Positions 42,590 to 59,519 of a stretch of 64,000 bases of DNA are shown in pieces (positions within the stretch are counted from its first letter, which is position 1; each line of letters begins with the position of its first letter). The notes under the pieces are model-generated. The model was not told the origin of the DNA. It was given only the letters and a program-made list of their open reading frames with translations, and ran no database searches. The stretch comes from Candidatus Poribacteria bacterium. Lineage in GTDB: Bacteria; Poribacteria; WGA-4E; WGA-3G. The stretch spans positions 102,906 through 166,905 of the forward strand of contig VXMD01000050.1 of NCBI GenBank assembly GCA_009841255.1, written 5' to 3'. Position numbers and translations under genes: made by a program.

Positions 42590-44608
42590 TCACGGAACAG
42601 CTTCATATCTGAGGATTGTTCCGTTTTGCCCAACCGCCCATCCGCTCTCTGTGTTGCTTACATAGATAGCCTTCAAATCCGTTTTGGTATCTGTATACTG
42701 AGGTCTCCAATTTTGTCCGCCATCCTTTGTGTGGAGGACGAGTCCCTCTTTTCCAACAATCCAGCCTTCTGTCTCTGAAACAAAAAAAACATCGTCAAGG
42801 AAATTGCGGGTATAACTCTCTTGACGTTGCCATGTTTTTCCGCCATTCTCGGTGTGTAGAATCAATCCATCCATACCCAAACTACGCAGATCTAATCCGA
42901 CGACCCATCCTATCTTTGGGGTAACAAAGGTGACGGCGTCTAATAGAAAAGTTGGATAACGCTCGCTGAGAGGTGACAACCTCCAATTCGTACCGCCATC
43001 AACTGTAGAAAGCATTGTTCCGTTCAGACCGACTGCCCAACCGCGTCGTTTGGAGGTGAAATGAACATCAAAGAGGTTCCAATTCGTACCGCTCTTTTGC
43101 TGTTGCCATGTTTTCCCACCATTATCTGTGTGGATAATTTCACCGCCACTTCCGACACACCATCCATTTTTTTCATCTACAAAGAAAACACTGAGTAGAT
43201 CCTGCTGTGTTCCTGAAATTTGTCGTTGCCATACGCTTCCACCGTTTATGGTATGCAGAACGACCCCAGCTTCTGCGACTGCCCATCCTATGTGTGGAGA
43301 CACGAAATGTGTTGCGCCGAAACACTCGGTTGTCCGACTATCTTGCGCGCGCCATTCGATCCCTCCATTCTCGGTTCGTAGAATCGCGCCTCGGTCACCC
43401 ACAACGTATCCTTCATCTGGTGAGATGGCACATACACCTACCAAGAGATGACTGGGACTTGATTGTGATTCCCATGTTACACCGCCGTTACGCGTGTGTA
43501 GAATTGTGCCGTTTTCACCGACCGCCCAACCGATTTGCTTGGAGACGAAGTCAACACCCAATAGAACGGCGTCTGCGCTGTTGTGAAACCGGGGCCCCCC
43601 ACGTTGATGTTTCCATTTCTCTTTTCCACCAGACGAAGTGTGAAGAATCACGCCTAAGTCGCCGACAATCCAGCCATTTTGGGCATCTACAAAATCAATA
43701 TCGTAAAGTGTAAAGGTATGCAGCGGCTCATTGCCGAGATAATCGGGTTGACCGTAACTATTTTTATGGCGTTCGTTGGTGCCTCGAGTGACGAAATCCC
43801 ATGTGTTTCCTCCATCGGTTGTTACGAAAACGCTCCGGCGATCACCGACAACCCAACCGGTCTGTTCGTCTACGAAATGGAGATTGAAGAGGGCGGTTTC
43901 TGTCGCGAATTGGACTTCCCAGGTTTCTCCACCATCGGTTGTCCGATAGATGTAGCCGGCGTTTCCCGATTTTGTTGATGTCGGTGTGCTATAGGTAACG
44001 ATCCATCCCCAGTTTTCATCTGCAAAATGGATTCCTTTCAATGACTTGCCGTCGAATACCTTTCCATCAATCTTTGTAAAGGTCTGTCCGCTGTCGGTCG
44101 TTTTCAGAACTGTGCCCCAGTCGCCAACAATCCAGCCGGTTTCAGTGCCTATGAAAAGGTCATGCAGATTATTTTCCGTACCGGTTTCAATGTGCTGCCA
44201 TGTTTGCCCGCCATCGGTTGTCCGGATTAAAACGCCGCCTTCACCGATACACCAGCCTTCTAACGCTGAACGAAAATACACATTTCGCAGCGGTTTGTTG
44301 AAAACCCCGCTGTGCTGTCTTTGCCATGTTTGTCCACCGTCGTTTGTGTGAATGATGAGGCTTTCGGCACCTTCTCCGAAGTCGGTTCCAGGAATTACAT
44401 CTATGGCATTACCAACTGCCCAGCCCTGCTTTTCAGAAATGAAATGGACATCGTATAGGTGTGAACTCCAATCGCCTTCCATGACGGTTTTCCACTCGTA
44501 CCGGACCTGTCTGTCGGATCCTGGTTGTTCACAGCCAACGCTAAATAGGCTAATGCTTATCAGAATGCCTGCTACTAACCGAAAACTATAAAAGGACTTC
44601 GCTGACAT
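42590..44608 (-). CDS. Ycf48/HCF136-like BNR propeller lipoprotein
   Basis: A 672-residue lipoprotein (lipobox LFSVGC, residues 22-27) made of about 14 repeats of the pattern GWAVGxxGxILHTxDGGxTWxxQ, as in the Ycf48 and sialidase-like Asp-box families. In photosynthetic organisms Ycf48 aids photosystem assembly; here there is no photosystem, and members like this are probably envelope-bound binding or assembly factors. Its start overlaps the stop of dapB by 23 bases, so the two genes are coupled, although their functions look unrelated. Confidence 0.85.
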   Translation of the reverse strand: MSAKSFYSFRLVAGILISISLFSVGCEQPGSDRQVRYEWKTVMEGDWSSHLYDVHFISEKQGWAVGNAIDVIPGTDFGEGAESLIIHTNDGGQTWQRQHSGVFNKPLRNVYFRSALEGWCIGEGGVLIRTTDGGQTWQHIETGTENNLHDLFIGTETGWIVGDWGTVLKTTDSGQTFTKIDGKVFDGKSLKGIHFADENWGWIVTYSTPTSTKSGNAGYIYRTTDGGETWEVQFATETALFNLHFVDEQTGWVVGDRRSVFVTTDGGNTWDFVTRGTNERHKNSYGQPDYLGNEPLHTFTLYDIDFVDAQNGWIVGDLGVILHTSSGGKEKWKHQRGGPRFHNSADAVLLGVDFVSKQIGWAVGENGTILHTRNGGVTWESQSSPSHLLVGVCAISPDEGYVVGDRGAILRTENGGIEWRAQDSRTTECFGATHFVSPHIGWAVAEAGVVLHTINGGSVWQRQISGTQQDLLSVFFVDEKNGWCVGSGGEIIHTDNGGKTWQQQKSGTNWNLFDVHFTSKRRGWAVGLNGTMLSTVDGGTNWRLSPLSERYPTFLLDAVTFVTPKIGWVVGLDLRSLGMDGLILHTENGGKTWQRQESYTRNFLDDVFFVSETEGWIVGKEGLVLHTKDGGQNWRPQYTDTKTDLKAIYVSNTESGWAVGQNGTILRYEAVP

Positions 44609-45383
44609 CGTGTAACCCTTTAGGCGCGTTGATGACCCATCTCGCTGCGCGGATTGCGCCTTTGGCGAAAGCCTCTGGACTGTGTGCTCGGTGGACGACG
44701 CTTAATTGTTCACCCTCTGTTGCGAACAGCACCGTATGATCACCGGCGATATCACCCCCTCGGACGGCGTGGATGCCGATCTGCTTCTTCGGTCTCGCAC
44801 CAACGATGCCGTGGCGACCGTAGACACCCACCTCATCTAAATCGCGCTCTAATGCTGTCGCTACCGTTTCTGCTAAGCGGAGTGCCGTGCCGCTCGGTGC
44901 ATCTGCTTTGTGATTATGGTGTGTCTCTATCACTTCAATATCGTAATCATCCCCGAGGGCTTTGGCGATTAATTCCAGTGCTTGTATCATCACGTTGACA
45001 CCGAGACTCATGTTCGGTGCCATTACGCAGCGGATTTGTGATGCGAGTTCCTGAACAGCGGCAAGTTCATCAGGATCATATCCGGTTGTTGCGATTATCA
45101 TCGCTTTATCCGCATTGACGACCTGTTGGAGGTGTTGAATTGTTGCTTCAGGTTTTGAAAATTCGATGACGACATCTGCGCTTTCCAGCACGGCTTCAAG
45201 GTTACCTGTAACCGCTACCCCTATTTCTCCAATACCGGCAACAACACCGGCATCACTCCCGATTTGTGGGTGTTCAGGGAATTCAATCGCGCCAACGATT
45301 TCCATATCGGTTTGTTCGGTAACGCCTCGGATAATGAGCCGTCCCATACGGCCACATGCCCCATTAATAATCACACCAATCAT
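44586..45383 (-). CDS. dapB: 4-hydroxy-tetrahydrodipicolinate reductase
   Basis: A 265-residue enzyme of lysine/diaminopimelate synthesis that reduces 4-hydroxy-tetrahydrodipicolinate with NAD(P)H. It has the dinucleotide-binding VIINGACGRMGRLI at the N-terminus, ATTGYDPDEL and APNMSLGVNVM. The catalytic motif is EVIETHHNHKADAPSGTALR, with the His pair and Lys. The ATG at 45383 has AAGGA 10 bases upstream; a longer frame to 45449 runs into a repeat. It pairs functionally with the DapL gene at 40.4 kb. Confidence 0.95.
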   Translation of the reverse strand: MIGVIINGACGRMGRLIIRGVTEQTDMEIVGAIEFPEHPQIGSDAGVVAGIGEIGVAVTGNLEAVLESADVVIEFSKPEATIQHLQQVVNADKAMIIATTGYDPDELAAVQELASQIRCVMAPNMSLGVNVMIQALELIAKALGDDYDIEVIETHHNHKADAPSGTALRLAETVATALERDLDEVGVYGRHGIVGARPKKQIGIHAVRGGDIAGDHTVLFATEGEQLSVVHRAHSPEAFAKGAIRAARWVINAPKGLHDVSEVLL

Positions 45384-45404
45384 ATTTTTACTGTTCCTTG
45401 AGTG

Positions 45405-45590
45405 GTTATCAGTTATCGGTGAATCAACGGTATGAATGCCGTGTGGCATTCACTGGGATTTTCTACGAAAATCCTTTCGGTTGTCAGTTCGGAGGGCTCT
45501 CGTAACAATCTTCCCTACCTTGGAATATTCCAGGACCCTGGTGAATTGTTACCGAACCCTCTCTTAACTGATAATCGATAACCGAAAGCC
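45405..45590. repeat. MITE-like repeat, copy 4, with an inserted hairpin module
   Basis: GGTTATCAGTTATCGG (left) and CTCTTAACTGATAATCGATA (right) are the inverted ends. Inside lies GAATCAACGGTATGAATGCC plus GTGTGGCATTC, the same hairpin module nested in leader element copies B and I. A second inverted pair (GAGGGCTCTCGTAACAATC and GAATTGTTACCGAACCCTC) is also present. Confidence 0.55.
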
Positions 45591-45619: not shown

Positions 45620-46549
45620 CTATTTCAATGTGAATAGATACGCCAAAAGATCGTGCATCTGCTTGACGGAAAGAATATCTGCGAAGTTTTCAGGCATAAC
45701 GCCTGCTTGTGGGATACTGGTACTCCTTATATCCGTTTTGAAGTAGGTTGTCCACAACTTCCCGGACTCGTCAAGTATCTGCACTGTTTCAGGGTCCAAT
45801 CTGTCTCTGTGATCATACTGATACCGCTTCCGACCGGTGATTTCCTCTCCATCCTTGGTGAAAAGGGTAATCATTTCATATTCGGGCGCGATATAGGCGC
45901 GCGGATCGAGGATGGACTCGACAATAAATTGTGGCGATCGGGTACGAGCGACATACGTCATATCAGGACCTATTTCGTTACCGGTGCCGGTGGCACCTCT
46001 CCCGTGAACTGTGTGGCACTTACCGCAAGCGTACCCTTCTGAGAAAAAGATGGCTTCTCCTGCTTTGACGTCACCGTCCATATATGGCGTCCAGTCCTCG
46101 GTAGGTTTTACTTTATCCAAAGAGACCCCTGCCGCTTTCGCTTGTTCTGAGCGGAGGTAGCCGACAATCATGTTGATCGCCTCATCAGAGAGTTTGCCAC
46201 CAAACTTTTGCATCTCGGTCCCTGGAAGTCCGTTGAAGACTGTCTGGAAGATACCGTCATCCGTCCAGCCATAGAGCCACTGCGGTTTGAAAAGATCGGG
46301 TGCTGTGCCGCCGCGGGTCTGTGCAGCGTGACAATTCCAACACATCAAACGGAAGTAAAACGCGCCATCAATGACATCTTCTTCATAATTGATGTCGGTG
46401 TCTCTCGGTGCTGCGGGGGCAATGTCTACCTCTAAGTCCTGGGCATTTACAATCGGAAAAAAGAGGAAACTTACACCCAAAGAGAGGAGGAAAATACGCC
46501 ACGTTATTCGGACGGTAGAAGTTGTAACGCGGGTAGAATAATACATCAT
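45620..46549 (-). CDS. Periplasmic dihaem cytochrome c (XoxG-like position)
   Basis: A 309-residue secreted cytochrome c. The signal peptide (RIFLLSLGVSFLFFPIV) is followed by two haem-binding motifs, CWNCH (about residue 75) and CGKCH (about 175), each in a cytochrome-c-like domain. The C-terminal part contains MPENFADILSVKQMHDLLAYL, a typical cytochrome c end with candidate axial Met. It lies directly after the periplasmic binding protein and the PQQ alcohol dehydrogenase, so it probably accepts electrons from that enzyme. Two haems is more than the single haem of classical MxaG/XoxG. GGAGG lies 10 bases upstream. Confidence 0.88.
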   Translation of the reverse strand: MMYYSTRVTTSTVRITWRIFLLSLGVSFLFFPIVNAQDLEVDIAPAAPRDTDINYEEDVIDGAFYFRLMCWNCHAAQTRGGTAPDLFKPQWLYGWTDDGIFQTVFNGLPGTEMQKFGGKLSDEAINMIVGYLRSEQAKAAGVSLDKVKPTEDWTPYMDGDVKAGEAIFFSEGYACGKCHTVHGRGATGTGNEIGPDMTYVARTRSPQFIVESILDPRAYIAPEYEMITLFTKDGEEITGRKRYQYDHRDRLDPETVQILDESGKLWTTYFKTDIRSTSIPQAGVMPENFADILSVKQMHDLLAYLFTLK

Positions 46550-47421
46550 TTCTGTTCATCCTCCTGAAACGGAGCGAAGTAAGGCAAATGATACTTCTCA
46601 CAGAGTTCTTGAAGTTTCTCCGCACTCCATTTCTGTTCGATAATTGTGTTAACAACATCTTGAAGTTCACTTGTTTTTCGTGTTGGTTTATCTTTGCTAA
46701 AAGCGATAGCGACATTCCAACGGAGACGAGCTTCAGGAACGTACCCTTTGACAATCTCTAATTCAGGGTAAGCAGTCTCCGTCTGTTCTGGCTGCTGAAT
46801 TCGGGAACCCTTTTCAATCAACCATCCAATATTTGACCAGACATATCCGTAGGCAATTTGCCCTTTCTTGAGAGCGTCCAAGACAGCAATTTGTGAGCGA
46901 TAAACGCGACGGTTATACCCCATCTGTCGAAGGACATCACTGGCGATAGAACCCGCTTCTGTCCCGATTGTTTCTAACTTAATGGCCTCCAGCGTCTTAG
47001 GGTTCTCTGGATTACTTTTCTGTTTTACCAGGACGTAGCCGGTACCGTAAAAGGGTGTAGAGAAGTCAACGTTTTTTCCTAATTGGATTGACTCACTCAT
47101 GGCGCGCTCCTCAATCGGAACTCCAATCACACAGTCGCAATGTCCACGTATCATGTCAGCAAGCAGGCTATCTCGGAGGGTGTTAAGCCAGTGGAGTTCC
47201 AGCTTAACACCGAGTTCCTCTGCCAGTAGGTGTGCTATCTCAACGTATAATCCAGGAAGTTCCGGATCCGCATTGGAGTAAGGCAGATTTCGGACATCCA
47301 TACAGACCGTTAAGACACCCTCTTTCCGAATTTCTTCCAAGGTGCTGACAGCGTTTGCGTTGTGTAACATCAAAATCGGCAATATGAGAAGCGCGATCCA
47401 CAAAGTGGTATAGTGTTTCAA
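46546..47421 (-). CDS. MoxJ/XoxJ-like periplasmic binding protein
   Basis: A 291-residue secreted protein of the solute-binding type 3 fold (signal LWIALLILPILMLHNANA, then LEEIRKEGVLTVCMDVRNLP, DPELPGLYVEIAHLLAEEL and CDCVIGVP). It lies between the PQQ dehydrogenase and a cytochrome c, in the place taken by MxaJ/XoxJ in methanol dehydrogenase operons, where the protein helps mature or activate the dehydrogenase. Its stop overlaps the cytochrome start by 4 bases (ATGA). The two genes are clearly coupled. Confidence 0.83.
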   Translation of the reverse strand: MKHYTTLWIALLILPILMLHNANAVSTLEEIRKEGVLTVCMDVRNLPYSNADPELPGLYVEIAHLLAEELGVKLELHWLNTLRDSLLADMIRGHCDCVIGVPIEERAMSESIQLGKNVDFSTPFYGTGYVLVKQKSNPENPKTLEAIKLETIGTEAGSIASDVLRQMGYNRRVYRSQIAVLDALKKGQIAYGYVWSNIGWLIEKGSRIQQPEQTETAYPELEIVKGYVPEARLRWNVAIAFSKDKPTRKTSELQDVVNTIIEQKWSAEKLQELCEKYHLPYFAPFQEDEQK

Positions 47422-47452
47422 GGTTACGACCTCCGTGTGTCAATAGCAGATA

Positions 47453-49177
47453 TTACTCGAAGAGCGCGAACACAAAGAGAGTTCCACCTTCGCGCGCATT
47501 AACTTCAGCATATTTCACAGCACCTGACGCTATCGCAACGTATTGGACGCCGTCGAGTTGATAGGTAATTGGCGGTGCGAGCACCCCGGATCCGGTCTGG
47601 AAATCCCAAAGCACTTCACCGGTTTCTGCCGATAATGCCATGAATCTTCCCTCTAAATCACCCGCAAAAACGAGACCGCCTGCCGTTGTAAGGCATCCGC
47701 CCCATTGGGGAAAATTCGTTTTATGTCGCCATTTAATATCACCCGTAGAAACATCGATTGCACTGATGTGTCCCCACATCTGCATATCGCCGGCTTCATC
47801 TCTCTCTGCTGTCATACCGCTTCCGAGGTAAGGTAGACCTTTCACATAGAAAACGCGTCCTTGATGATAGGAACCGCAGAGTTCCAGCGAAGGGACGTAG
47901 AGATAATTTGTGTTCGGATTATAGGCTGAGGGGGGCCAGTTCTTGCCGCCTTCAACACCGGGACACACACGAATCGTACCTTCTTCTGAGGTGGACACGC
48001 CGGGTAGGACGGTAGGACGACCGTTTTCATCGAGCCCTCCGGTCCAGTTCTGTTCGCAGTAAGTGCTTGCGTATAGAAATTTTCCGTTGGTTCTATCAAG
48101 CACATAAAAATAGCCGTTGCGATTCGCTTGCATCAGTGCTTTGACCGGTGTGCCATCTATCTCCATATCGATCAGGACCGGTTCACTCACGCCGTCCCAA
48201 TCCCATAGGTCGTGGGGTGTCGCTTGAAAGTACCATTTCAGTTTCCCCGTATCAGCATCCAACGCAACGATACAGTCAGTATAGAGGTTGTCGCCCCGCC
48301 GGACAGCACCATTCCAGTCTGGTGCGGGGTTACCCGTTCCCCAGTAGACAAGATTCAATTCCGGGTCATAAGAACCTGTGACCCAAGCGGATCCGCCCCC
48401 TGTCATCCATGAATCGCCTTCCCATGTGTCACCACCCGGTTCGTCTTTTGAAGGAACGGTGTAAAATCGCCATGCCTGTTCACCTGTTTCGGCATAATAC
48501 GCATCGATGTAGCCTCGGATGCCATATTCCGCACCTGATATGCCGACAACCACTTTGTCTTTGACGACTAAGGGGGCGACAGTGAGGGATTCAGCGTTAG
48601 TCAAGTCACCGACAACCCTGTCCCATAGGACTCTACCGGTTTTCGCGTCGAGAGCGAGAAGATGTGCGTCGAGCGTAACCCAAAAGATTTTATCGCCCAA
48701 GATAGCCGCCCCACGGTTCACCATACCGCAGCAGATCGCCAAATCGTCGGGGAGTTCATAATCGTACCGCCATATTTCCTTACCGGTTCTTGCGTCCACG
48801 GCGTAGATGGTGCTATAAGGCGTGGTGATGAACATCACACCGTCGACAACCAGTGGGGTACATTCAAACTTGTCAAAAGGTGTTCCAATTTGAAACGCCC
48901 ATTTTGGGACGAGTTTTTTGACGCTTTCAGTGTTAACCTGTGTGAGTTGACTATATCGCCAACTTCTGTAATCCCGTCCATACATCAACCAGCTCTCAGG
49001 GTCATCCTGTGATGAGAGTAGCATCTCGTTCGTGACAGATCGAATCTCCGGTGTGGTGCCGGCTATTATCGGACTTGGTATCGTAGCGAGTGTTAAGCTT
49101 ACGATGAAGATAATGAAACTTACGCGTTTGATGTGTAAACAACAGTTTGATGCTTCGGAGAAAATATACCTGTTCAT
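47453..49177 (-). CDS. PQQ-dependent alcohol dehydrogenase, lanthanide type
   Basis: A 574-residue quinoprotein (signal ISFIIF-type hydrophobic segment, then WLMYGRDYRSWRYSQL). Catalytic features: vicinal cysteines C149-C150 (AICCG) under the cofactor, E217 in SGAEYG, N283 in GTGNPAPDW, catalytic D326 and an extra Asp D328 in DLWDWDG. The second Asp two residues after the catalytic one is the feature that coordinates a lanthanide in XoxF- and PedH-type enzymes; calcium enzymes have Ala or similar there. It oxidises a primary alcohol in the periplasm. The next genes are XoxJ-like and cytochrome c, giving a xoxFJG-like layout. The substrate could be methanol, ethanol or another alcohol. Confidence 0.87.
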   Translation of the reverse strand: MNRYIFSEASNCCLHIKRVSFIIFIVSLTLATIPSPIIAGTTPEIRSVTNEMLLSSQDDPESWLMYGRDYRSWRYSQLTQVNTESVKKLVPKWAFQIGTPFDKFECTPLVVDGVMFITTPYSTIYAVDARTGKEIWRYDYELPDDLAICCGMVNRGAAILGDKIFWVTLDAHLLALDAKTGRVLWDRVVGDLTNAESLTVAPLVVKDKVVVGISGAEYGIRGYIDAYYAETGEQAWRFYTVPSKDEPGGDTWEGDSWMTGGGSAWVTGSYDPELNLVYWGTGNPAPDWNGAVRRGDNLYTDCIVALDADTGKLKWYFQATPHDLWDWDGVSEPVLIDMEIDGTPVKALMQANRNGYFYVLDRTNGKFLYASTYCEQNWTGGLDENGRPTVLPGVSTSEEGTIRVCPGVEGGKNWPPSAYNPNTNYLYVPSLELCGSYHQGRVFYVKGLPYLGSGMTAERDEAGDMQMWGHISAIDVSTGDIKWRHKTNFPQWGGCLTTAGGLVFAGDLEGRFMALSAETGEVLWDFQTGSGVLAPPITYQLDGVQYVAIASGAVKYAEVNAREGGTLFVFALFE

Positions 49178-49406: not shown

Positions 49407-50306
49407 TTAGTTTTGTTCTAACCTTGCTTGTTCGCTGGCGTGATAGGAGCTTCGCACTAATGGACCCGACTCTACATGTCGAAATCCCATTTCGATCCCT
49501 GCTTCTTTGATCTCTTCAAATTCTTCGGGGGTATAATAGCGTTGAATCGGTAAATGGCGTGAGGAAGGGGAAAGGTATTGACCCACGGTGAGAATATCGC
49601 ATTCAGTATTGCGGAGGTCTTCCATTGTCTCTAAGAGTTCTGTCACGGTTTCACCCAAGCCTACCATAAGTCCGGACTTTGTGAGCATCTGTGCGTCCAG
49701 TTTCTTACTGGTACGGAGCAGGTTCAGCGTTTGTTGGTAATTTGCATACGGACGGACGCGGCGGTAGAGACGTGGAACTGTTTCTGTGTTATGATTGAGC
49801 ACTTCAGGTCGTGCTTGCACGATGACGGCGAGTGCGTCCCAATTTCCTTCGAGGTCAGGGATAAGGACTTCTACTGTGCATCCGGGACGATGTTTTCGTG
49901 CTTCAGCGATGCATTCGGCGAAAACGCTCGCCCCACCGTCTGCCAGGTCGTCTCGATTGACTGAGGTAATAACGACGTGCTTGAGTTTTAAGTGGCCGAC
50001 GGCTTCACCGAGCCTACGCGGTTCATCGAGATCAACAATCCCGCCAGGCGTGCCTTTTTTTACAGCGCAGAACATACAGCGACGCGTGCAGACATCACCG
50101 AGTATCATAAAGGTGGCGGTGCGGCTATTCCAACACTCACCGATATTCGGACATCGCGCCTCTTCACAGACCGTGTGGAGTTGGAGATTCCGCATTAATT
50201 TCTTGAGCTCAGCGTAGTTACCGCCACTCGGCATCCGAGCTTTAATCCAAGACGGGTGTCGTCTTTGTCGTGTTTCGTGCTGGACTAATGGAAGCGTCTT
50301 TAGCAT
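49407..50306 (-). CDS. lipA: Lipoyl synthase
   Basis: A 299-residue radical-SAM enzyme that inserts sulfur into octanoyl groups. The auxiliary cluster motif CEEARCPNIGEC and the radical-SAM motif CTRRCMFC are intact. Family ends GLMVGLGETVTE and VESGPLVRSSYHA are present. The ATG at 50306 (MLKTL) directly abuts leader element copy G. A longer frame to 50366 is inside that element and was not used. Confidence 0.95.
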   Translation of the reverse strand: MLKTLPLVQHETRQRRHPSWIKARMPSGGNYAELKKLMRNLQLHTVCEEARCPNIGECWNSRTATFMILGDVCTRRCMFCAVKKGTPGGIVDLDEPRRLGEAVGHLKLKHVVITSVNRDDLADGGASVFAECIAEARKHRPGCTVEVLIPDLEGNWDALAVIVQARPEVLNHNTETVPRLYRRVRPYANYQQTLNLLRTSKKLDAQMLTKSGLMVGLGETVTELLETMEDLRNTECDILTVGQYLSPSSRHLPIQRYYTPEEFEEIKEAGIEMGFRHVESGPLVRSSYHASEQARLEQN

Positions 50307-50395
50307 TTTTAATTTAGCCCTAACGGGAGTTGTCGGGCGGGTTTCAGCGTGGCACGTACCTTTCAAAAATCCGCCATGCGCCGTTGTTGCATGGC
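50307..50395 (-). repeat. Dispersed leader element, copy G (abuts ATG)
   Basis: On the minus strand, GCCATGC (50395-50389) pairs with GCATGGC (50379-50373). Compared with GCCTGC/GCAGGC copies, both sides have changed together. The 3' end AGGGCTAAATTAAAA runs directly into the lipA ATG. Confidence 0.65.
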
Positions 50396-50559: not shown

Positions 50560-52500
50560 TCATGTTGCTCTGTGCCGCGGATGCAATCTTCGGATATTGC
50601 CATCTCGGATCGTAAGATTCTGGCTATCGCAATATTCCAAGAACGGCACTGCATATTTTCGTGAAGTTTGTGCTGTTTCTCGGAATTCCGCAACGGTTAT
50701 TGTATCATTTTTACGCAGATAAGTCGCTAATAATTCCTGTATCTCTTCAAAAACGGTTTTATGAATAAAGAAATTATCCGCGATTTTGACAAACTGTCCC
50801 AAGTTCAGGAGCGCGTAAAACGTGGATTCAAGCAGTTGCGGTGTATATTCTGGAAATAACGTGCTGAGTTCGTTGAAAGCGGGTGTATTCATGCCGGCTT
50901 CCAAAAATAGTTGCTCAAGTCTTTCTTTTGCGGTTTCTTCCTCTTGGGAAAACTGGATTTCGTGGGATGCCAATCGGAGAAGATTGCCGTCTTTAGCGAG
51001 TTGACCATCGGCAATGAGTCGGTTTTCGAGTTTCTCAAAACCGGTTTCGTCCAATCTGAGTTCTCGACGCAGTTGTGAAGCATTTTGACCGGCAAGGAGA
51101 GGTTCTGCCAAATGGAACGCTGTCAACGTTTCTATGATTTTCTCTTTTGTATTTGCCGTCCGCACTGCGTCAGAAACGAGAGGCGACCTGCCCGATTTAT
51201 CCCAACGTACAATCTTTCCGTCTGCTTCCAAGTTATTCAAGATGGCGTTCACGTTGGGCTGCGACTGCGGTAGATAATAGTGGAGGAAGGACTCTGGCAC
51301 GCAAAGGGTTTCGCTATTTTCTAAGACAGTGTTCACGATCTGTGCATCATCAACTTCTTCCCATTCGGCTAAGGTGTCGATGGTTTCTGGCGTGAACCGC
51401 TTGTGCTTAGGAGCAAATGGGTTAATAACTTCACCACCACCGACTGTATATTGTGCTGAAAAATCGCGTAGAATAATTCTGTCGCCTCTGAACGTTAGAA
51501 TGGGGTGTTCCAAGCGAAGTTGAACCTGGACGGTATCCCCCGGTAGAATGGCATCGTCAACAAGTAGGATTAATCTGCAAAATATTTCGCGAGTGCCGAG
51601 ATATGCCCGGAGACGCGTCCAATGTTCAAGTATCCTTGGAAATGAGGACAAGACTTGCATCGACACATCAATATTGTCCGTCACTTGTGAAAATTCGATG
51701 GGGCAGAGGACATCGCCGCGTTGGAGATCTTGGGCAGAGATACCGGAAAGGTTCAATGCTGTCCGCTGTCCGGCTTGCGCTACAGATGCCGTTTCATTGT
51801 GTACCTGTATCCCTCGAACCCGCACCGCATGACCCTGCGGGAGAATCACCATCCGCTGGTCTCGATGAATCAATCCCCCGATGAGCGTGCCTGTCACAAC
51901 AACGCCGAACCCTTGAACGGTGAAAACTCTGTCAACGTATAACCGCGGAATACCATCATTTTCTTCGGTTTCTGTCGCGAGGGCTACCTGCTTGACGATA
52001 GTCTCTTTTAATGCTTCAATACCTACGCCGGTTATTGCGGAAACACTCACGGTTGGAATGCCTTCAAGACTTGTGTCGATGAGCATCTCCTGGGTCATTT
52101 CGGTTGCTTCCGACAATTCATCAGCGGTTGCCAAGTCCGATTTTGTCATGACGAGGATACCGTTTGAGATTCCGAGCAAATCTAAGATCGCCAGATGTTC
52201 GAGGGTCTGTTCCTGAACGCCTTCTTTTGCATCGACGACAAAGAGGACGATATCCATACCGTAAGCCCCGGAGAGCATACTTCGGATGAATTTTTCATGA
52301 CCTGGAACGTCAACGATACCTGCCCGCGAGTCGTCTGGGAGATCAAAGTAGGCGAACCCTAACTCAATAGACAAACCCCGTTCCTTCTCTTCCTGGAGTC
52401 GATCCGTCTCCATACCGGTAAGTGCCCCGACGAGCGCGGTTTTCCCGTGGTCAACGTGCCCTGCTGTTCCGATGATGAGGTGTCGTCTATCTTGATGCAT
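50560..52500 (-). CDS. selB: Selenocysteine-specific elongation factor SelB
   Basis: A 646-residue translational GTPase that delivers Sec-tRNA to UGA codons marked by a SECIS. The G domain has [17 protein letters not shown] and TKSD. EF-Tu-like domains II and III follow to about residue 350, then C-terminal winged helices ([15 protein letters not shown] near 480 and [20 protein letters not shown] near 600) that bind SECIS RNA. The full-length gene is intact and is followed by tRNA-Sec. Its 5' 843 bases are inside the duplicated unit, so a second, truncated copy of the N-terminus lies at 54.9-55.8 kb. selA and selD are not in the window. Confidence 0.95.
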
Positions 52501-52507
52501 AGGTTTT

Positions 52508-52664
52508 CTTCTGGTTGTCAGTTGCCAGTCGTCAGTTATCAGTTAAAGAGGCCTTTGGGTATAATCCACTGCTTCTTGGAGGGCTCCAGGCTTTTTTCCA
52601 ATTGTTACAGAGCGTCTCTTAACTCTCACTGCGAGGCAAACTGATAACCGATAACTGACAACTA
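52508..52664. repeat. MITE-like intergenic repeat, copy 5
   Basis: GGTTGTCAGTTGCCAGTCG with GTTATCAGTTAAAGAGG (left) and CTCTTAAC, then CTGATAACCGATAACTGACA (right), are inverted ends around about 90 bases. An identical copy lies at 55803-55959 in the second duplication unit. Confidence 0.55.
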
Positions 52665-53435
52665 TTAAGGCTGTGCGTGGATGAGTTTGCCAATTCGATT
52701 AAAACGAACGCTACCTACTATTTTCCATACTTCCCACAATTTCGCTGGACGGGAATCAAAAGACCAGTATACCATAAATGCTTGTCCTTTGATGTCGTTC
52801 ACATCCACGGGTCCCCACGAGCGGCTATCACTACTCTGATCGCGATTATCACCCATAGCGAACACCATACCTTTCGGCACAGTGAACGGTTTACCTTCTG
52901 GGAACTTACGCTTGAATTGACTCGTCGTTAGGTCAAAGTCCGAAAAAGCCTCTGTCTCAGGCAGATACTCTGGTTGGCGGAACGGGGGAAAATCGCCTCT
53001 TCTGAAATGGCTAAAAGTCATATATTTCGTATAATGACCATCGTCGGCCGCCTCGCCGTTTACATAAAGTGTGTCGCCGTTGGTTTCGATTGTATCTCCT
53101 TCAACGGCTACGATACGTTTGATGAAATTTCGTTCCCGATCGTGGGGTGGGATGAAAACGAAAACATCTCCCCGGGTAGGCTTATGGAAATCAAGAACCT
53201 TGATGTCTGTGCCGGGGATTTTAATGCCGTAGATAAATTTGCATACCAGGATCCGGTCTCCGATAAGAAGCGTATCTTCCATTGAACCGGAGGGGATTTT
53301 GAATGCCTCAACAACAAAAGGACGTATGAATCCGAAAACGAGAATGAGTGCTACAACAATGACTTGGGTATATTCCCATACAATTGTCTTCCGAAATTTT
53401 TGCCATTTGGATAATTGCGTGTTGTTGTTATTCAT
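52665..53435 (-). CDS. lepB: Signal peptidase I (first paralog, copy 1)
   Basis: A 256-residue inner-membrane serine protease that removes signal peptides. One membrane segment (YTQVIVVALILVFGFIRPF) precedes the catalytic Ser in FKIPSGSMEDTLL and the general-base Lys in NFIKRIVAVEGD. GMVFAMGDNRDQSSDSRSWG is the family C-box. It is one of two neighbouring LepB paralogs. An identical copy at 55960-56730 belongs to the second duplication unit. Confidence 0.95.
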   Translation of the reverse strand: MNNNNTQLSKWQKFRKTIVWEYTQVIVVALILVFGFIRPFVVEAFKIPSGSMEDTLLIGDRILVCKFIYGIKIPGTDIKVLDFHKPTRGDVFVFIPPHDRERNFIKRIVAVEGDTIETNGDTLYVNGEAADDGHYTKYMTFSHFRRGDFPPFRQPEYLPETEAFSDFDLTTSQFKRKFPEGKPFTVPKGMVFAMGDNRDQSSDSRSWGPVDVNDIKGQAFMVYWSFDSRPAKLWEVWKIVGSVRFNRIGKLIHAQP

Positions 53436-53559
53436 AGTATTATGGTGCCATCATCGGTGAAAAGGCGTTCTCCTTTCCGCATTCTATCTGTACGAATAAA
53501 GCGTGTATAAGGTTGCTCGTTTTAAAGTATCAGTTCTCCAAAAAATAATTTGCTCCAGT

Positions 53560-54360
53560 CTACTGGGAGAACGAATCCGGCTCGGAAGAGATAAGTTTGC
53601 CGATTCGCGTGAAACGAATATTGCCTATCATCTTCCATACTTCCCATAACTTCACTGGACGATTGGCGACCGAAAACACAATTATGAAGGCTTGTCCTTT
53701 GATGTCATCTACAGAGACAGGTCCCCAGAAACGGCTATCGCTACTCTGATCGCGATTATCGCCCATTGCGAACACCATGCCCTTCGGCACAGTGAATGGA
53801 TTCCCTTGCGGAAACTTACGCCTGAACTGACTGTCTGTCAAAGTGTAGTCCTCAAAGTTTTCACCCGTCGGAATATATTCACGCTGCCGGAACGGTGGGA
53901 AATCTCTTCTGAACTGATGAAATGGCAGGTGTTTTGTGTAACTTGCATCGTCGACAGTTTTGCCGTTGACATAAAGCGTATCGTCCCGCGTTTCAACGGT
54001 ATCGCCTTCAATGGCTACAATCCGCTTGATAAAATGTCGATCGTCGTGTGGTGGAATAAAAACAAAAACATCGCCACGGGCCGGTTTGTGAAAGTCAAAA
54101 ATTTTGATGTCTGTGCCGGGGACCTTGACCCCGTAGATAAACTTAGATACCAAAATCTGATCTCCGATAAGCAGTGTATCCTCCATGGATCCGGATGGGA
54201 TCCTATACGCTTCAACAATAAATGGACGTATGAGACCGAAATTGAGAATCAGCACAACAAGGATAAATTTTGCGAACTCATGTGCTCCAATTTTTTCTAA
54301 TTTTTGCTGTTTGGCTGGTGTGGCTTTGGTGGACTGCCAGGGCTTCTGTGTATTATTCAT
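53560..54360 (-). CDS. lepB: Signal peptidase I (second paralog, copy 1)
   Basis: A 266-residue signal peptidase I with one membrane segment near residue 35. The catalytic Ser is in YRIPSGSMEDTLL, the Lys in HFIKRIVAIEGD, and the C-box GMVFAMGDNRDQSSDSRFWG is present. It is about 60-70 percent alike to its neighbour by eye, so the pair is an old duplication. An identical copy at 56855-57655 arises from the recent segmental duplication. Confidence 0.95.
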   Translation of the reverse strand: MNNTQKPWQSTKATPAKQQKLEKIGAHEFAKFILVVLILNFGLIRPFIVEAYRIPSGSMEDTLLIGDQILVSKFIYGVKVPGTDIKIFDFHKPARGDVFVFIPPHDDRHFIKRIVAIEGDTVETRDDTLYVNGKTVDDASYTKHLPFHQFRRDFPPFRQREYIPTGENFEDYTLTDSQFRRKFPQGNPFTVPKGMVFAMGDNRDQSSDSRFWGPVSVDDIKGQAFIIVFSVANRPVKLWEVWKMIGNIRFTRIGKLISSEPDSFSQ

Positions 54361-54418
54361 TCGTTAAAAACCGTTGAATAGAACGATGATCTCCCTTTTC
54401 CAATGTGATCTGTCCATG

Positions 54419-55795
54419 TTACTCATCAGTTGCAAGCATTGCGGTAAACGCTTCTTGTGGAACATCGACGTTGCCGATCTGTTTGAGCCGTTTTTTGCCC
54501 TCTTTCTGTCTTTCAAGCAATTTCCGTTTTCGCGTCACATCACCGCCGTAGCATTTCGCGGTAACGTTTTTTCGGAGTGCTCGCACTGTTTCGCGTGCAA
54601 CAATCTTGTTGCCGATTGCGGCTTGAACCGGGACTTCAAACATTTGACGCGGAATTAGTTCTTTCAACTTGGTCACCAGTGCCTTGCCACGCGTTTCAGC
54701 ATTGTCTTGTGGCAAAATCGTTGAGAGCGCGTCCACGGGGTTCCCATTCAGCAACACATCTAATTTGACGAGTTTCTCGGTTTTATATGCTCCGATATCA
54801 TATTCTAACGAACCGTAACCGCGGGTCAATGATTTAAGTTTCGGATAGAAATCTATCAACATTTCACTGAGCGGGAGTTCGTAAAGCAGCTGCACACGAT
54901 GTGCGTCCAATTGGTTCATCCGCCTATATATACCCCGACGCTTCTGACAAAGCATCGACACATCAATATTGTCCGTCACTTGTGAAAATTCGATGGGGCA
55001 GAGGACATCGCCGCGTTGGAGATCTTGGGCAGAGATACCGGAAAGGTTCAATGCTGTCCGCTGTCCGGCTTGCGCTACAGATGCCGTTTCATTGTGTACC
55101 TGTATCCCTCGAACCCGCACCGCATGACCCTGCGGGAGAATCACCATCCGCTGGTCTCGATGAATCAATCCCCCGATGAGCGTGCCTGTCACAACAACGC
55201 CGAACCCTTGAACGGTGAAAACTCTGTCAACGTATAACCGCGGAATACCATCATTTTCTTCGGTTTCTGTCGCGAGGGCTACCTGCTTGACGATAGTCTC
55301 TTTTAATGCTTCAATACCTACGCCGGTTATTGCGGAAACACTCACGGTTGGAATGCCTTCAAGACTTGTGTCGATGAGCATCTCCTGGGTCATTTCGGTT
55401 GCTTCCGACAATTCATCAGCGGTTGCCAAGTCCGATTTTGTCATGACGAGGATACCGTTTGAGATTCCGAGCAAATCTAAGATCGCCAGATGTTCGAGGG
55501 TCTGTTCCTGAACGCCTTCTTTTGCATCGACGACAAAGAGGACGATATCCATACCGTAAGCCCCGGAGAGCATACTTCGGATGAATTTTTCATGACCTGG
55601 AACGTCAACGATACCTGCCCGCGAGTCGTCTGGGAGATCAAAGTAGGCGAACCCTAACTCAATAGACAAACCCCGTTCCTTCTCTTCCTGGAGTCGATCC
55701 GTCTCCATACCGGTAAGTGCCCCGACGAGCGCGGTTTTCCCGTGGTCAACGTGCCCTGCTGTTCCGATGATGAGGTGTCGTCTATCTTGATGCAT
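54419..55795 (-). CDS. Chimeric SelB (1-281) - LepA (432-608) fusion made at the duplication junction
   Basis: A 458-residue in-frame chimera. Residues 1-281 are identical to the SelB N-terminus: G domain with GHVDHGKT and DVPGHE, domain II and part of III up to NIDVSM. From residue 282, [12 protein letters not shown] onwards is identical to LepA 432-608, i.e. the end of its domain V and the whole C-terminal domain. The junction is exactly the duplication join at 54952/54953. The product would bind GTP and perhaps Sec-tRNA but carry the LepA ribosome-binding tail and lack SECIS-binding helices. It may be harmful, silent, or an assembly artefact. Intact selB and lepA flank it. Confidence 0.85.
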
Positions 55796-55802
55796 AGGTT
55801 TT

Positions 55803-55959
55803 CTTCTGGTTGTCAGTTGCCAGTCGTCAGTTATCAGTTAAAGAGGCCTTTGGGTATAATCCACTGCTTCTTGGAGGGCTCCAGGCTTTTTTCCAATTGT
55901 TACAGAGCGTCTCTTAACTCTCACTGCGAGGCAAACTGATAACCGATAACTGACAACTA
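55803..55959. repeat. MITE-like intergenic repeat, copy 6 (duplicate of copy 5)
   Basis: Identical to 52508-52664 because it lies inside the duplicated unit. Confidence 0.55.
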
Positions 55960-56730
55960 TTAAGGCTGTGCGTGGATGAGTTTGCCAATTCGATTAAAAC
56001 GAACGCTACCTACTATTTTCCATACTTCCCACAATTTCGCTGGACGGGAATCAAAAGACCAGTATACCATAAATGCTTGTCCTTTGATGTCGTTCACATC
56101 CACGGGTCCCCACGAGCGGCTATCACTACTCTGATCGCGATTATCACCCATAGCGAACACCATACCTTTCGGCACAGTGAACGGTTTACCTTCTGGGAAC
56201 TTACGCTTGAATTGACTCGTCGTTAGGTCAAAGTCCGAAAAAGCCTCTGTCTCAGGCAGATACTCTGGTTGGCGGAACGGGGGAAAATCGCCTCTTCTGA
56301 AATGGCTAAAAGTCATATATTTCGTATAATGACCATCGTCGGCCGCCTCGCCGTTTACATAAAGTGTGTCGCCGTTGGTTTCGATTGTATCTCCTTCAAC
56401 GGCTACGATACGTTTGATGAAATTTCGTTCCCGATCGTGGGGTGGGATGAAAACGAAAACATCTCCCCGGGTAGGCTTATGGAAATCAAGAACCTTGATG
56501 TCTGTGCCGGGGATTTTAATGCCGTAGATAAATTTGCATACCAGGATCCGGTCTCCGATAAGAAGCGTATCTTCCATTGAACCGGAGGGGATTTTGAATG
56601 CCTCAACAACAAAAGGACGTATGAATCCGAAAACGAGAATGAGTGCTACAACAATGACTTGGGTATATTCCCATACAATTGTCTTCCGAAATTTTTGCCA
56701 TTTGGATAATTGCGTGTTGTTGTTATTCAT
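55960..56730 (-). CDS. lepB: Signal peptidase I (first paralog, copy 2)
   Basis: A 256-residue protein identical to the one at 52665-53435, with the same Ser (PSGSM) and Lys (FIKRIVA) active-site motifs. It is the duplicate contributed by unit 2. Before the duplication the order here was probably lepA, lepB paralog 2, lepB paralog 1, selB, tRNA-Sec. Confidence 0.93.
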   Translation of the reverse strand: MNNNNTQLSKWQKFRKTIVWEYTQVIVVALILVFGFIRPFVVEAFKIPSGSMEDTLLIGDRILVCKFIYGIKIPGTDIKVLDFHKPTRGDVFVFIPPHDRERNFIKRIVAVEGDTIETNGDTLYVNGEAADDGHYTKYMTFSHFRRGDFPPFRQPEYLPETEAFSDFDLTTSQFKRKFPEGKPFTVPKGMVFAMGDNRDQSSDSRSWGPVDVNDIKGQAFMVYWSFDSRPAKLWEVWKIVGSVRFNRIGKLIHAQP

Positions 56731-56854
56731 AGTATTATGGTGCCATCATCGGTGAAAAGGCGTTCTCCTTTCCGCATTCTATCTGTACGAATAAAGCGTG
56801 TATAAGGTTGCTCGTTTTAAAGTATCAGTTCTCCAAAAAATAATTTGCTCCAGT

Positions 56855-57655
56855 CTACTGGGAGAACGAATCCGGCTCGGAAGAGATAAGTTTGCCGATT
56901 CGCGTGAAACGAATATTGCCTATCATCTTCCATACTTCCCATAACTTCACTGGACGATTGGCGACCGAAAACACAATTATGAAGGCTTGTCCTTTGATGT
57001 CATCTACAGAGACAGGTCCCCAGAAACGGCTATCGCTACTCTGATCGCGATTATCGCCCATTGCGAACACCATGCCCTTCGGCACAGTGAATGGATTCCC
57101 TTGCGGAAACTTACGCCTGAACTGACTGTCTGTCAAAGTGTAGTCCTCAAAGTTTTCACCCGTCGGAATATATTCACGCTGCCGGAACGGTGGGAAATCT
57201 CTTCTGAACTGATGAAATGGCAGGTGTTTTGTGTAACTTGCATCGTCGACAGTTTTGCCGTTGACATAAAGCGTATCGTCCCGCGTTTCAACGGTATCGC
57301 CTTCAATGGCTACAATCCGCTTGATAAAATGTCGATCGTCGTGTGGTGGAATAAAAACAAAAACATCGCCACGGGCCGGTTTGTGAAAGTCAAAAATTTT
57401 GATGTCTGTGCCGGGGACCTTGACCCCGTAGATAAACTTAGATACCAAAATCTGATCTCCGATAAGCAGTGTATCCTCCATGGATCCGGATGGGATCCTA
57501 TACGCTTCAACAATAAATGGACGTATGAGACCGAAATTGAGAATCAGCACAACAAGGATAAATTTTGCGAACTCATGTGCTCCAATTTTTTCTAATTTTT
57601 GCTGTTTGGCTGGTGTGGCTTTGGTGGACTGCCAGGGCTTCTGTGTATTATTCAT
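56855..57655 (-). CDS. lepB: Signal peptidase I (second paralog, copy 2)
   Basis: A 266-residue protein identical to the one at 53560-54360. It lies 58 bases downstream of lepA, in the usual lepA-lepB order, so it probably keeps the ancestral context. It has all catalytic motifs of signal peptidase I. Confidence 0.93.
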   Translation of the reverse strand: MNNTQKPWQSTKATPAKQQKLEKIGAHEFAKFILVVLILNFGLIRPFIVEAYRIPSGSMEDTLLIGDQILVSKFIYGVKVPGTDIKIFDFHKPARGDVFVFIPPHDDRHFIKRIVAIEGDTVETRDDTLYVNGKTVDDASYTKHLPFHQFRRDFPPFRQREYIPTGENFEDYTLTDSQFRRKFPQGNPFTVPKGMVFAMGDNRDQSSDSRFWGPVSVDDIKGQAFIIVFSVANRPVKLWEVWKMIGNIRFTRIGKLISSEPDSFSQ

Positions 57656-57713
57656 TCGTTAAAAACCGTTGAATAGAACGATGATCTCCCTTTTCCAATG
57701 TGATCTGTCCATG

Positions 57714-59519
57714 TTACTCATCAGTTGCAAGCATTGCGGTAAACGCTTCTTGTGGAACATCGACGTTGCCGATCTGTTTGAGCCGTTTTTTGCCCTCTTT
57801 CTGTCTTTCAAGCAATTTCCGTTTTCGCGTCACATCACCGCCGTAGCATTTCGCGGTAACGTTTTTTCGGAGTGCTCGCACTGTTTCGCGTGCAACAATC
57901 TTGTTGCCGATTGCGGCTTGAACCGGGACTTCAAACATTTGACGCGGAATTAGTTCTTTCAACTTGGTCACCAGTGCCTTGCCACGCGTTTCAGCATTGT
58001 CTTGTGGCAAAATCGTTGAGAGCGCGTCCACGGGGTTCCCATTCAGCAACACATCTAATTTGACGAGTTTCTCGGTTTTATATGCTCCGATATCATATTC
58101 TAACGAACCGTAACCGCGGGTCAATGATTTAAGTTTCGGATAGAAATCTATCAACATTTCACTGAGCGGGAGTTCGTAAAGCAGCTGCACACGATGTGCG
58201 TCCAATTGGTTCATCCGCCTATATATACCCCGACGCTTCTGACAAAGTTCCATCGCATTTCCAATATAGTCGCGAGGAACGATAATGTCAATATTGACAT
58301 ACGGTTCTTCAATTCGTTCGATGTTATTTGGTTCTGGGAGATGTGCTGGATTGTCGACCGGCACATAGCCACCCGTTTTCAGGTAAACTCGATACATCAC
58401 ACTCGGCGCAGTTCGTACAAGCGCGAGTCCGAATTCCCGTTCGAGACGTTCATGAATAATTTCCATGTGAAGCAAACCGAGAAAACCACACCGAAATCCG
58501 AAGCCCAGGGCGACGGAGGTCTCAGGTTCAAAATTGAAGGAGGAATCGTTGAGCCGGAGTTTATCGAGTGCCTCGCGCAGGGCATGGAACTGGTTTGTGT
58601 CTGCCGGATAGAGACCGCTGAATACAAGCGGTTTCATTTCTCGATAACCGGGAAGGGGTGTTGCTGTCGGTTTCGTGTGATGTGTGATTGTATCCCCGAT
58701 TTTCGCTTTGTCGATCTCTCGGATGCCGGCGATGAGGTAGCCGACAGCACCCGTGCGGAGTTCAGGGGTCGGTTGCATTTCTGGTGTGAAGATGCCTACC
58801 TCCTCAACTTCATAGGAGCGTTTCGTTTCCATGAGTTGAATCTTTTCGCCTGGCTTCACACTCCCCTCGAAGATGCGTGTGTACATGATGGCCCCGCGAT
58901 AGTTGTTATAGACGGAGTCAAGCACGAGTGCCTTTAAAGGGGCTTCAGGCGCGCCGACAGGTGCGGGGATTCGGTTGATAACTGCTTCTAATATTGCGGG
59001 GATACCGGTTCCCATTTTCGCACTAACGAGAAGTGCTTCGTCGGCAGGGATACCGATGACTTCTTCTATCTGCCGTCGGGCTTCATCGGGTTGTGCGGTG
59101 GGTAGATCGATTTTATTGACGACGGGGATAATCTCAAGATCATTGTCAATCGCGAGGTAAGCGTTTGCTAAGGTTTGCGCTTCGACACCTTGCGCGGCAT
59201 CAACGATGAGAATTGCACCTTCGCACGCCGCGAGGCTACGGGAGACCTCGTATGTAAAATCGACGTGTCCGGGTGTATCGATCAGGTTGAGTTCGTAGCG
59301 GTTTCCGTCAGCGGCGGGGTAATGGAGTTTGACAGCTGTTGCTTTAATGGTAATCCCGCGTTCACGCTCTAAATCCATCAGGTCCAGCACCTGTTCACGC
59401 ATATCGCGCTCAGTGAGCGTGTTCGTGTGCTCGAGGAGTCTATCGCTCAGCGTGCTTTTTCCGTGATCGATGTGCCCTAAAATGCAGAAATTCCGTATGT
59501 TTTCAAGATTCGTTGGCAT
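57714..59519 (-). CDS. lepA: Elongation factor 4 (LepA), intact copy
   Basis: A 601-residue ribosome-associated GTPase. It has [10 protein letters not shown] (P-loop), [14 protein letters not shown], the conserved [14 protein letters not shown] and the family C-terminal domain ([21 protein letters not shown]). The ATG at 59519 is chosen because the conserved [10 protein letters not shown] starts there; a TTG-containing frame reaches 59540. The -10 box ends only 9 bases before this ATG, so the message may be nearly leaderless. The 3' 534 bases are duplicated in the chimera upstream of the second SelB fragment. Confidence 0.95.

Follow-up and report, generated by a model that had tools for sequence, protein, structure and literature searches.

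Can an alcohol dehydrogenase that depends on pyrroloquinoline quinone (PQQ) serve bacteria in which no genes for making PQQ are found? The question is raised by a three-gene operon in a 64,000-nucleotide stretch of a Candidatus Poribacteria genome (GCA_009841255.1, contig VXMD01000050.1, positions 102,906 to 166,905 of the forward strand), called the window here and lying on contig C50 of a 5.73-Mb genome. The operon is encoded on the minus strand and consists of a PQQ alcohol dehydrogenase gene (47453-49177, 574 aa, with an N-terminus that by eye resembles a signal peptide), a gene for a family-3 periplasmic binding protein (46546-47421, 291 aa) and a gene for a two-haem cytochrome c (45620-46549, 309 aa). 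The original prediction had described these three reading frames as a lanthanide-type XoxF-J-G operon, and all three are present, as is the ATGA overlap that joins the binding-protein stop to the cytochrome start (46546-46549, minus strand; junction AAATGATG). We consider it probable that this is a lanthanide-type alcohol dehydrogenase operon that runs on scavenged PQQ and was lost by deletion on several occasions in its genus. In library searches that combined Poribacteria with PQQ, methanol dehydrogenase, alcohol dehydrogenase or lanthanides, no listed paper describes such a finding, judged by titles and the beginnings of abstracts.

The dehydrogenase and its metal site

The dehydrogenase belongs to the methanol/ethanol family of PQQ alcohol dehydrogenases, scoring 661.2 bits against TIGR03075 (cut-off 480.05) and 326.6 bits against the Pfam PQQ model (cut-off 26.7). 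Aligned with eight solved enzymes, it has in common with PedH the vicinal cysteines C149-C150 (codons 48728-48733), R155, E217 (48527-48529), N283 (48329-48331), D326, D328, R353, N413 and W414, all codons being on the minus strand. The roles of these positions, such as metal ligand or catalytic aspartate, are assigned after the literature on such enzymes. As originally claimed, residues 326 and 328 are both aspartate, the catalytic one and an extra one, in a D-x-D motif (D326-W327-D328, codons 48194-48202, minus strand).

Position 328 is aspartate in 70/70 aligned loci, which comprise 61 of the best 80 loci (8 Poribacterial and 53 others) and 9 plasmid loci. The loci were picked by similarity, and the scan patterns PHD[LV]WDW and WLMYGRDY do not include the extra aspartate. 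Among the solved anchors, the residue is present in 4/4 lanthanide enzymes and in 0/4 calcium enzymes, where alanine, serine or threonine takes its place. The lanthanide enzymes were labelled by their PDB names and titles, 4mae through 6fkw, whose sequence is identical. The extra aspartate had been put forward as the hallmark of rare-earth enzymes. It does divide the anchors of the methanol/ethanol family, but it is not exclusive to lanthanide enzymes, as E. coli Gcd also carries D-x-D, and the motif is therefore no proof of lanthanide use. Passages of PMC11996626 treat D-x-D as a direct indicator of lanthanide binding and report that Gcd works with Ca, Mg, Zn and Sr. Because Gcd shares the motif, lanthanide use by the Poribacterial enzyme is likely, not certain. 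The same enzyme, with the same scavenged PQQ, might instead hold calcium or whatever divalent ion is available, D-x-D being merely tolerated. The metal range reported for Gcd favours this alternative, as does the position of the Poribacterial clade outside those with proven lanthanide members (see below), but the clean division of the anchors and the published use of the motif as an indicator count against it; we think it unlikely, though worth keeping in mind.

Within the wider alignment, a group of Acidobacteriota-type relatives (L106, L108, L112, L117, L119, L123, L125, L127, L129, L131 and L132) has lost the vicinal cysteines. In the same group aspartate replaces the metal-ligand glutamate, and D-x-D is retained.

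PedH was the best match of the dehydrogenase in a sequence search of the PDB (467 bits, with XoxF at 397 bits). A structure model gave the same answer by Foldseek (E 1.8e-63) and by VIA-align, where PedH 6zcw led with Z 55.3, a root-mean-square deviation of 1.4 over 521 residues and 44% identity, followed by 1yiq (Z 53.6) and 1kv9 (Z 53.5). The model used was built from 44 sequences and has a mean predicted local distance difference test score (pLDDT) of 88; an earlier one, from 16 near-identical sequences, had a pLDDT of 51 and was set aside. Alignment and model lend good support to the view that the enzyme works like PedH, and by analogy this likeness would favour ethanol or other short alcohols or aldehydes as the substrate.

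Clade membership and partner proteins

Is the enzyme, then, a XoxF? In a maximum-likelihood tree of 77 rows, from which L097 and L146 (internal stops) and L102 (a fragment) were dropped, the nine Poribacterial rows form one clade with 100/100 support. It lies amid Acidobacteriota-type enzymes, with weak support for its deeper placement (84/71). A separate 100/100 clade unites the XoxF and MxaF anchors and contains no Poribacterial rows. PedH and ExaA pair at 98/95 inside another 100/100 clade that is free of Poribacteria, which places the enzyme outside the PedH/ExaF group (type 2b) as represented in a tree without any ExaF sequence. The phylogeny suggested at the outset thus upholds a PQQ alcohol dehydrogenase but puts it in a clade of its own, neither with XoxF/MxaF nor with PedH/ExaA, and the name XoxF does not hold.

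The operon is conserved among Poribacterial loci. These make up 20 of the best 80 of 269 relatives and are 83-98% identical, and 19 of the 20 have the same order of three genes, the exception being L082, which has an internal deletion.

The second gene had been likened to MoxJ/XoxJ. Its product is a family-3 binding protein and its best family name is the quinoprotein-associated TIGR03871, but the score of 64.6 bits is below the cut-off of 212.15, and against TIGR03870 it reaches 34.8 bits (cut-off 258.1), so that by score it is not a XoxJ/MoxJ member. Partners of the MoxJ/XoxJ/PedG type are thought to help load or assemble the dehydrogenase. A XoxJ-like role for the Poribacterial protein is suggested by its context and best family name, not by an above-cut-off score. 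The motif CDCVIG[VI] occurs in 18/19 Poribacterial copies, with the pattern unmatched in L067, and when 60 related non-Poribacterial loci were searched with a Poribacterial profile, no homologue turned up close to the enzyme.

The third gene encodes a cytochrome in which a cytochrome domain at the N-terminus is followed by a C-terminal haem domain that matches TIGR02603 (76.9 bits, cut-off 68.15), and this protein is the likely electron acceptor. The two haems originally noted are borne out by a pair of CXXCH motifs, which lie at residues 70 and 175. The same two motifs are found in 18/18 further intact-operon Poribacterial copies checked and in L078, and the L082 cytochrome, shortened by the deletion, has one. 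Against the MoxG model the protein scores 23.4 bits (cut-off 147.8) and thus does not fall among one-haem partners of the MoxG/XoxG type. Two haems had been singled out as a peculiarity of this locus, a notion we reject, since 21/60 related non-Poribacterial loci have a two-CXXCH homologue near the enzyme. Two haems and D-x-D are traits of a broad enzyme group and not of XoxF.

Were the enzyme a genuine XoxF methanol dehydrogenase, accompanied by XoxJ and XoxG and serving methylotrophy, this would account for the three-gene layout, for D-x-D and for the family name of the binding protein. Against this reading stand the tree, the two-haem cytochrome with its low MoxG score, the PDB search in which PedH outranks XoxF, and the search for Fae. 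Fae, the formaldehyde-activating enzyme, is the common entry of formaldehyde into oxidation linked to tetrahydromethanopterin (H4MPT). It was found in 0/38 genomes of the window's genus, whereas two control archaea match, one of them above the cut-off. The result therefore speaks against methylotrophy of the H4MPT type, and against that type only. With XoxF membership rejected on tree, cytochrome type and Fae absence, we give methanol oxidation by such a system next to no credence.

PQQ supply, selection and loss of the operon

A profile search with TIGR02111 found PqqC in 0/38 genomes of the genus, including the single-contig enzyme carriers G079, G082 and G083 and the three-contig G080, and by this test none of them is a PQQ producer. 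Across the 84 genomes of the phylum, the sole match is a half-length fragment in G015 (83-84 bits, cut-off 240). This half PqqC-like protein (L187, 1-377) lies at a contig edge with no neighbouring pqq genes and may be either a genuine PqqC or a related protein; the listed contamination of G015 is 7%. Because the 14 control genomes of the search hold no PqqC themselves, a positive control was made with 16 other genomes that have related enzymes, and the model scored above its cut-off in four, one of which is an uncultured Bryobacterales. PqqB-like matches were seen in 77/84 genomes and PqqE-like matches in 68/84, none above the cut-off (best 49 bits against 245, and 149 bits against 381). As far as these models reach, PQQ synthesis is absent from the genus. 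The weak matches might be read as signs of PQQ synthesis in the cell along a pathway that escapes the models. They are found equally in enzyme carriers and non-carriers, and the single-contig carriers have no PqqC, and we hold a cryptic route of this kind to be highly improbable.

The original prediction had proposed PQQ supply as a check. Synthesis genes were not found, but this does not refute the use of PQQ, because many quinoprotein bacteria scavenge it, according to part of PMC12124388. What then keeps the enzyme in place? Compared pair by pair, Poribacterial copies of the enzyme have a median ratio of nonsynonymous to synonymous substitution rates (dN/dS) of 0.064, those of the binding protein one of 0.138 and those of the cytochrome one of 0.131, compared with 0.063 for dapB, 0.053 for lipA and 0.063 for selB. 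For the enzyme 82/91 pairs were used, excluding those with saturated dS or dS < 0.05, and since many dS values are about 1 or higher the ratios are rough. Purifying selection on the enzyme is strong, and neutrality is excluded. A relic that has ceased to bind PQQ and serves some other purpose, or none, would fit a genus in which neither PQQ synthesis nor the importer PqqU was found and from which the operon has repeatedly been lost. It would also fit the likeness of the enzyme to the "empty quinoprotein" model TIGR04528, although the score of 517.8 bits is below the cut-off of 650 and does not make it a member. On the other side, the compared pocket and metal residues are all intact and invariant in the alignment, the dN/dS of the enzyme equals that of its housekeeping neighbours, and cytochrome and binding protein are retained alongside it; we judge a relic to be very unlikely. 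Because the enzyme is kept under selection without PQQ synthesis, PQQ from outside is the best explanation, and it is probably borrowed from neighbours.

The family scores above the cut-off in 25/84 genomes of the phylum, 24 of them in the window's genus and one, G015, in another family, and another four genomes match remotely, at about 180-190 bits. Counting G067 and G076, carriers number 26/38 in the genus and non-carriers 12/38. The operon sits between lipA (49407-50366, minus strand), its upstream flank, and dapB (44586-45449, minus strand), its downstream flank. In ten of the 12 enzyme-free genus genomes lipA adjoins dapB directly, with a gap of 172-505 bases; the contigs of G053 and G063 stop ahead of dapB. 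In G064 and G056 the terminal 41-45 cytochrome codons remain, fused to the stretch upstream of the enzyme start, and because this remnant persists the operon-free state is derived in both. G067 is missing about 2.07 kb relative to L077, the gap running from codon 331 of the dehydrogenase to codon 94 of the cytochrome; as the contig is only 4.2 kb long, this deletion may be a chimeric assembly. On a lipA tree of 34/38 genomes (G049 and G059 yielded no lipA, and G055 and G069 were left out), the presence of the enzyme needs five state changes, at least four of them forced by well-supported branches. We conclude, provisionally, that the operon was lost repeatedly within the genus.

How would PQQ enter the cell? 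With E. coli PqqU as the query, strong matches came only from G015 (1e-100) and G010 (4e-97), Poribacteria outside the window's genus. Their receptors (L188, 6057-8123, in G015 and L052 in G010) have Phe99, Arg304 and Arg365, in keeping with the PqqU signature of Y/F/W99, R304 and R365, together with Glu274, a position modelled as a co-bound metal site in a passage of PMC12124388. Against the NCBI PqqU model the G015 receptor scores 409.7 (cut-off 1200), and as a query at 1e-20 it matched 5/84 genomes, none of them in the genus. Other TonB receptors are present in 38/38 genus genomes, with 8-19 matches each. One receptor of the window's own genome, on contig C26 (L208, 1366-3789), has matches in 10/84 genomes, all enzyme carriers; within the genus this amounts to 10/26 carriers and 0/12 non-carriers (Fisher p 0.016, uncorrected for kinship). 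As a general PQQ importer this candidate is unsupported, being without the PqqU signature and missing from 16/26 carriers, including the near-complete G080, G082 and G083. It is possible that such carrier-only receptors represent a new type that takes up PQQ or a PQQ-lanthanide complex. PQQ makers account for 23% of PqqU carriers in the figures given by PMC12124388.

Proposed pathway and known systems

Taken together, the three genes would encode a periplasmic alcohol-oxidising chain. The dehydrogenase is predicted to be an eight-bladed propeller with PQQ, its metal, most likely a lanthanide, held by E217, N283, D326 and D328. It would oxidise a small alcohol or aldehyde and hand the electrons to the two-haem cytochrome, from which they would reach the respiratory chain; the binding protein may aid loading or assembly of the dehydrogenase. 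PQQ would be taken from outside and not made by the cell. If the cofactor comes from neighbours, the operon may for that reason be dispensable, and this could be why it was deleted several times. In a more far-reaching version, which we offer as a tentative proposal, rare-earth alcohol oxidation here would rest on a wholly community-made cofactor with uptake of a non-PqqU kind, and the operon would act as a readout of supply, deleted again wherever supply or substrate fails.

Several points weigh against a lanthanide enzyme fed by scavenged PQQ. D-x-D is shared with Gcd, and the binding protein scores below its family cut-off. Searches of the genus yielded no PqqU-type importer that bears the published signature, so that the uptake route is absent from the picture. 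The count of losses rests on one gene tree, that of lipA, and is provisional because of this and of possible gene exchange. The sponge association of the window's genome is drawn from literature on the phylum, parts of which describe Poribacteria as dominant in marine sponges (PMC3909097). Even so, a scavenging D-x-D enzyme remains the reading that we favour. Fold and chemistry are ordinary; it is the setting that is unusual, with an enzyme in its own clade selected without PQQ synthesis or PqqU and repeatedly deleted. This places a D-x-D quinoprotein in a dominant phylum of sponge symbionts, in genomes without PQQ synthesis or the one known high-affinity importer, and opens the sharing of a cofactor within a host community to direct testing.

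Around the operon, many Poribacterial relatives (L063-L082) have a tandem dapB pair after it, whereas the window has a single dapB. A short stretch about 40-118 bases past lipA is similar with or without the operon and is possibly a terminator or promoter. Further along the window, a 3,295-bp stretch stands in two head-to-tail copies with zero differences (51657-58247), the result of a very recent duplication or else of faulty assembly. It doubles two signal-peptidase genes and leaves a hybrid open reading frame (54419-55795) that combines the start of selB with the end of lepA.

Among known systems, PedH of Pseudomonas putida (6zcv/6zcw) shares the fold, the PQQ site, the vicinal cysteine pair and the metal residues E, N, D and D. 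It differs in sequence, at about 44% identity, and in grouping with ExaA, and the Poribacterial enzyme has a two-haem cytochrome as one partner and a divergent binding protein as the other. The XoxF/XoxJ/XoxG methanol oxidation system has the same operon make-up and D-x-D, but the Poribacterial enzyme belongs to another clade, its cytochrome is of another type and its genus is without Fae. The closest enzymes outside the phylum, among the best 80 of 269, are those of Acidobacteriota PQQ alcohol dehydrogenase loci such as L087 and L092, at about 50% identity at most. Many of these loci have a two-haem cytochrome homologue beside the enzyme, but usually upstream, and none of the 60 loci searched with the Poribacterial profile showed a binding-protein homologue close to the enzyme. 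PQQ scavenging by E. coli, in which Gcd is served by PqqU in the account of PMC12124388, likewise retains a quinoprotein without PQQ synthesis. There the importer is PqqU, whereas in the Poribacterial genus none with the Y99/R304/R365 signature was found.

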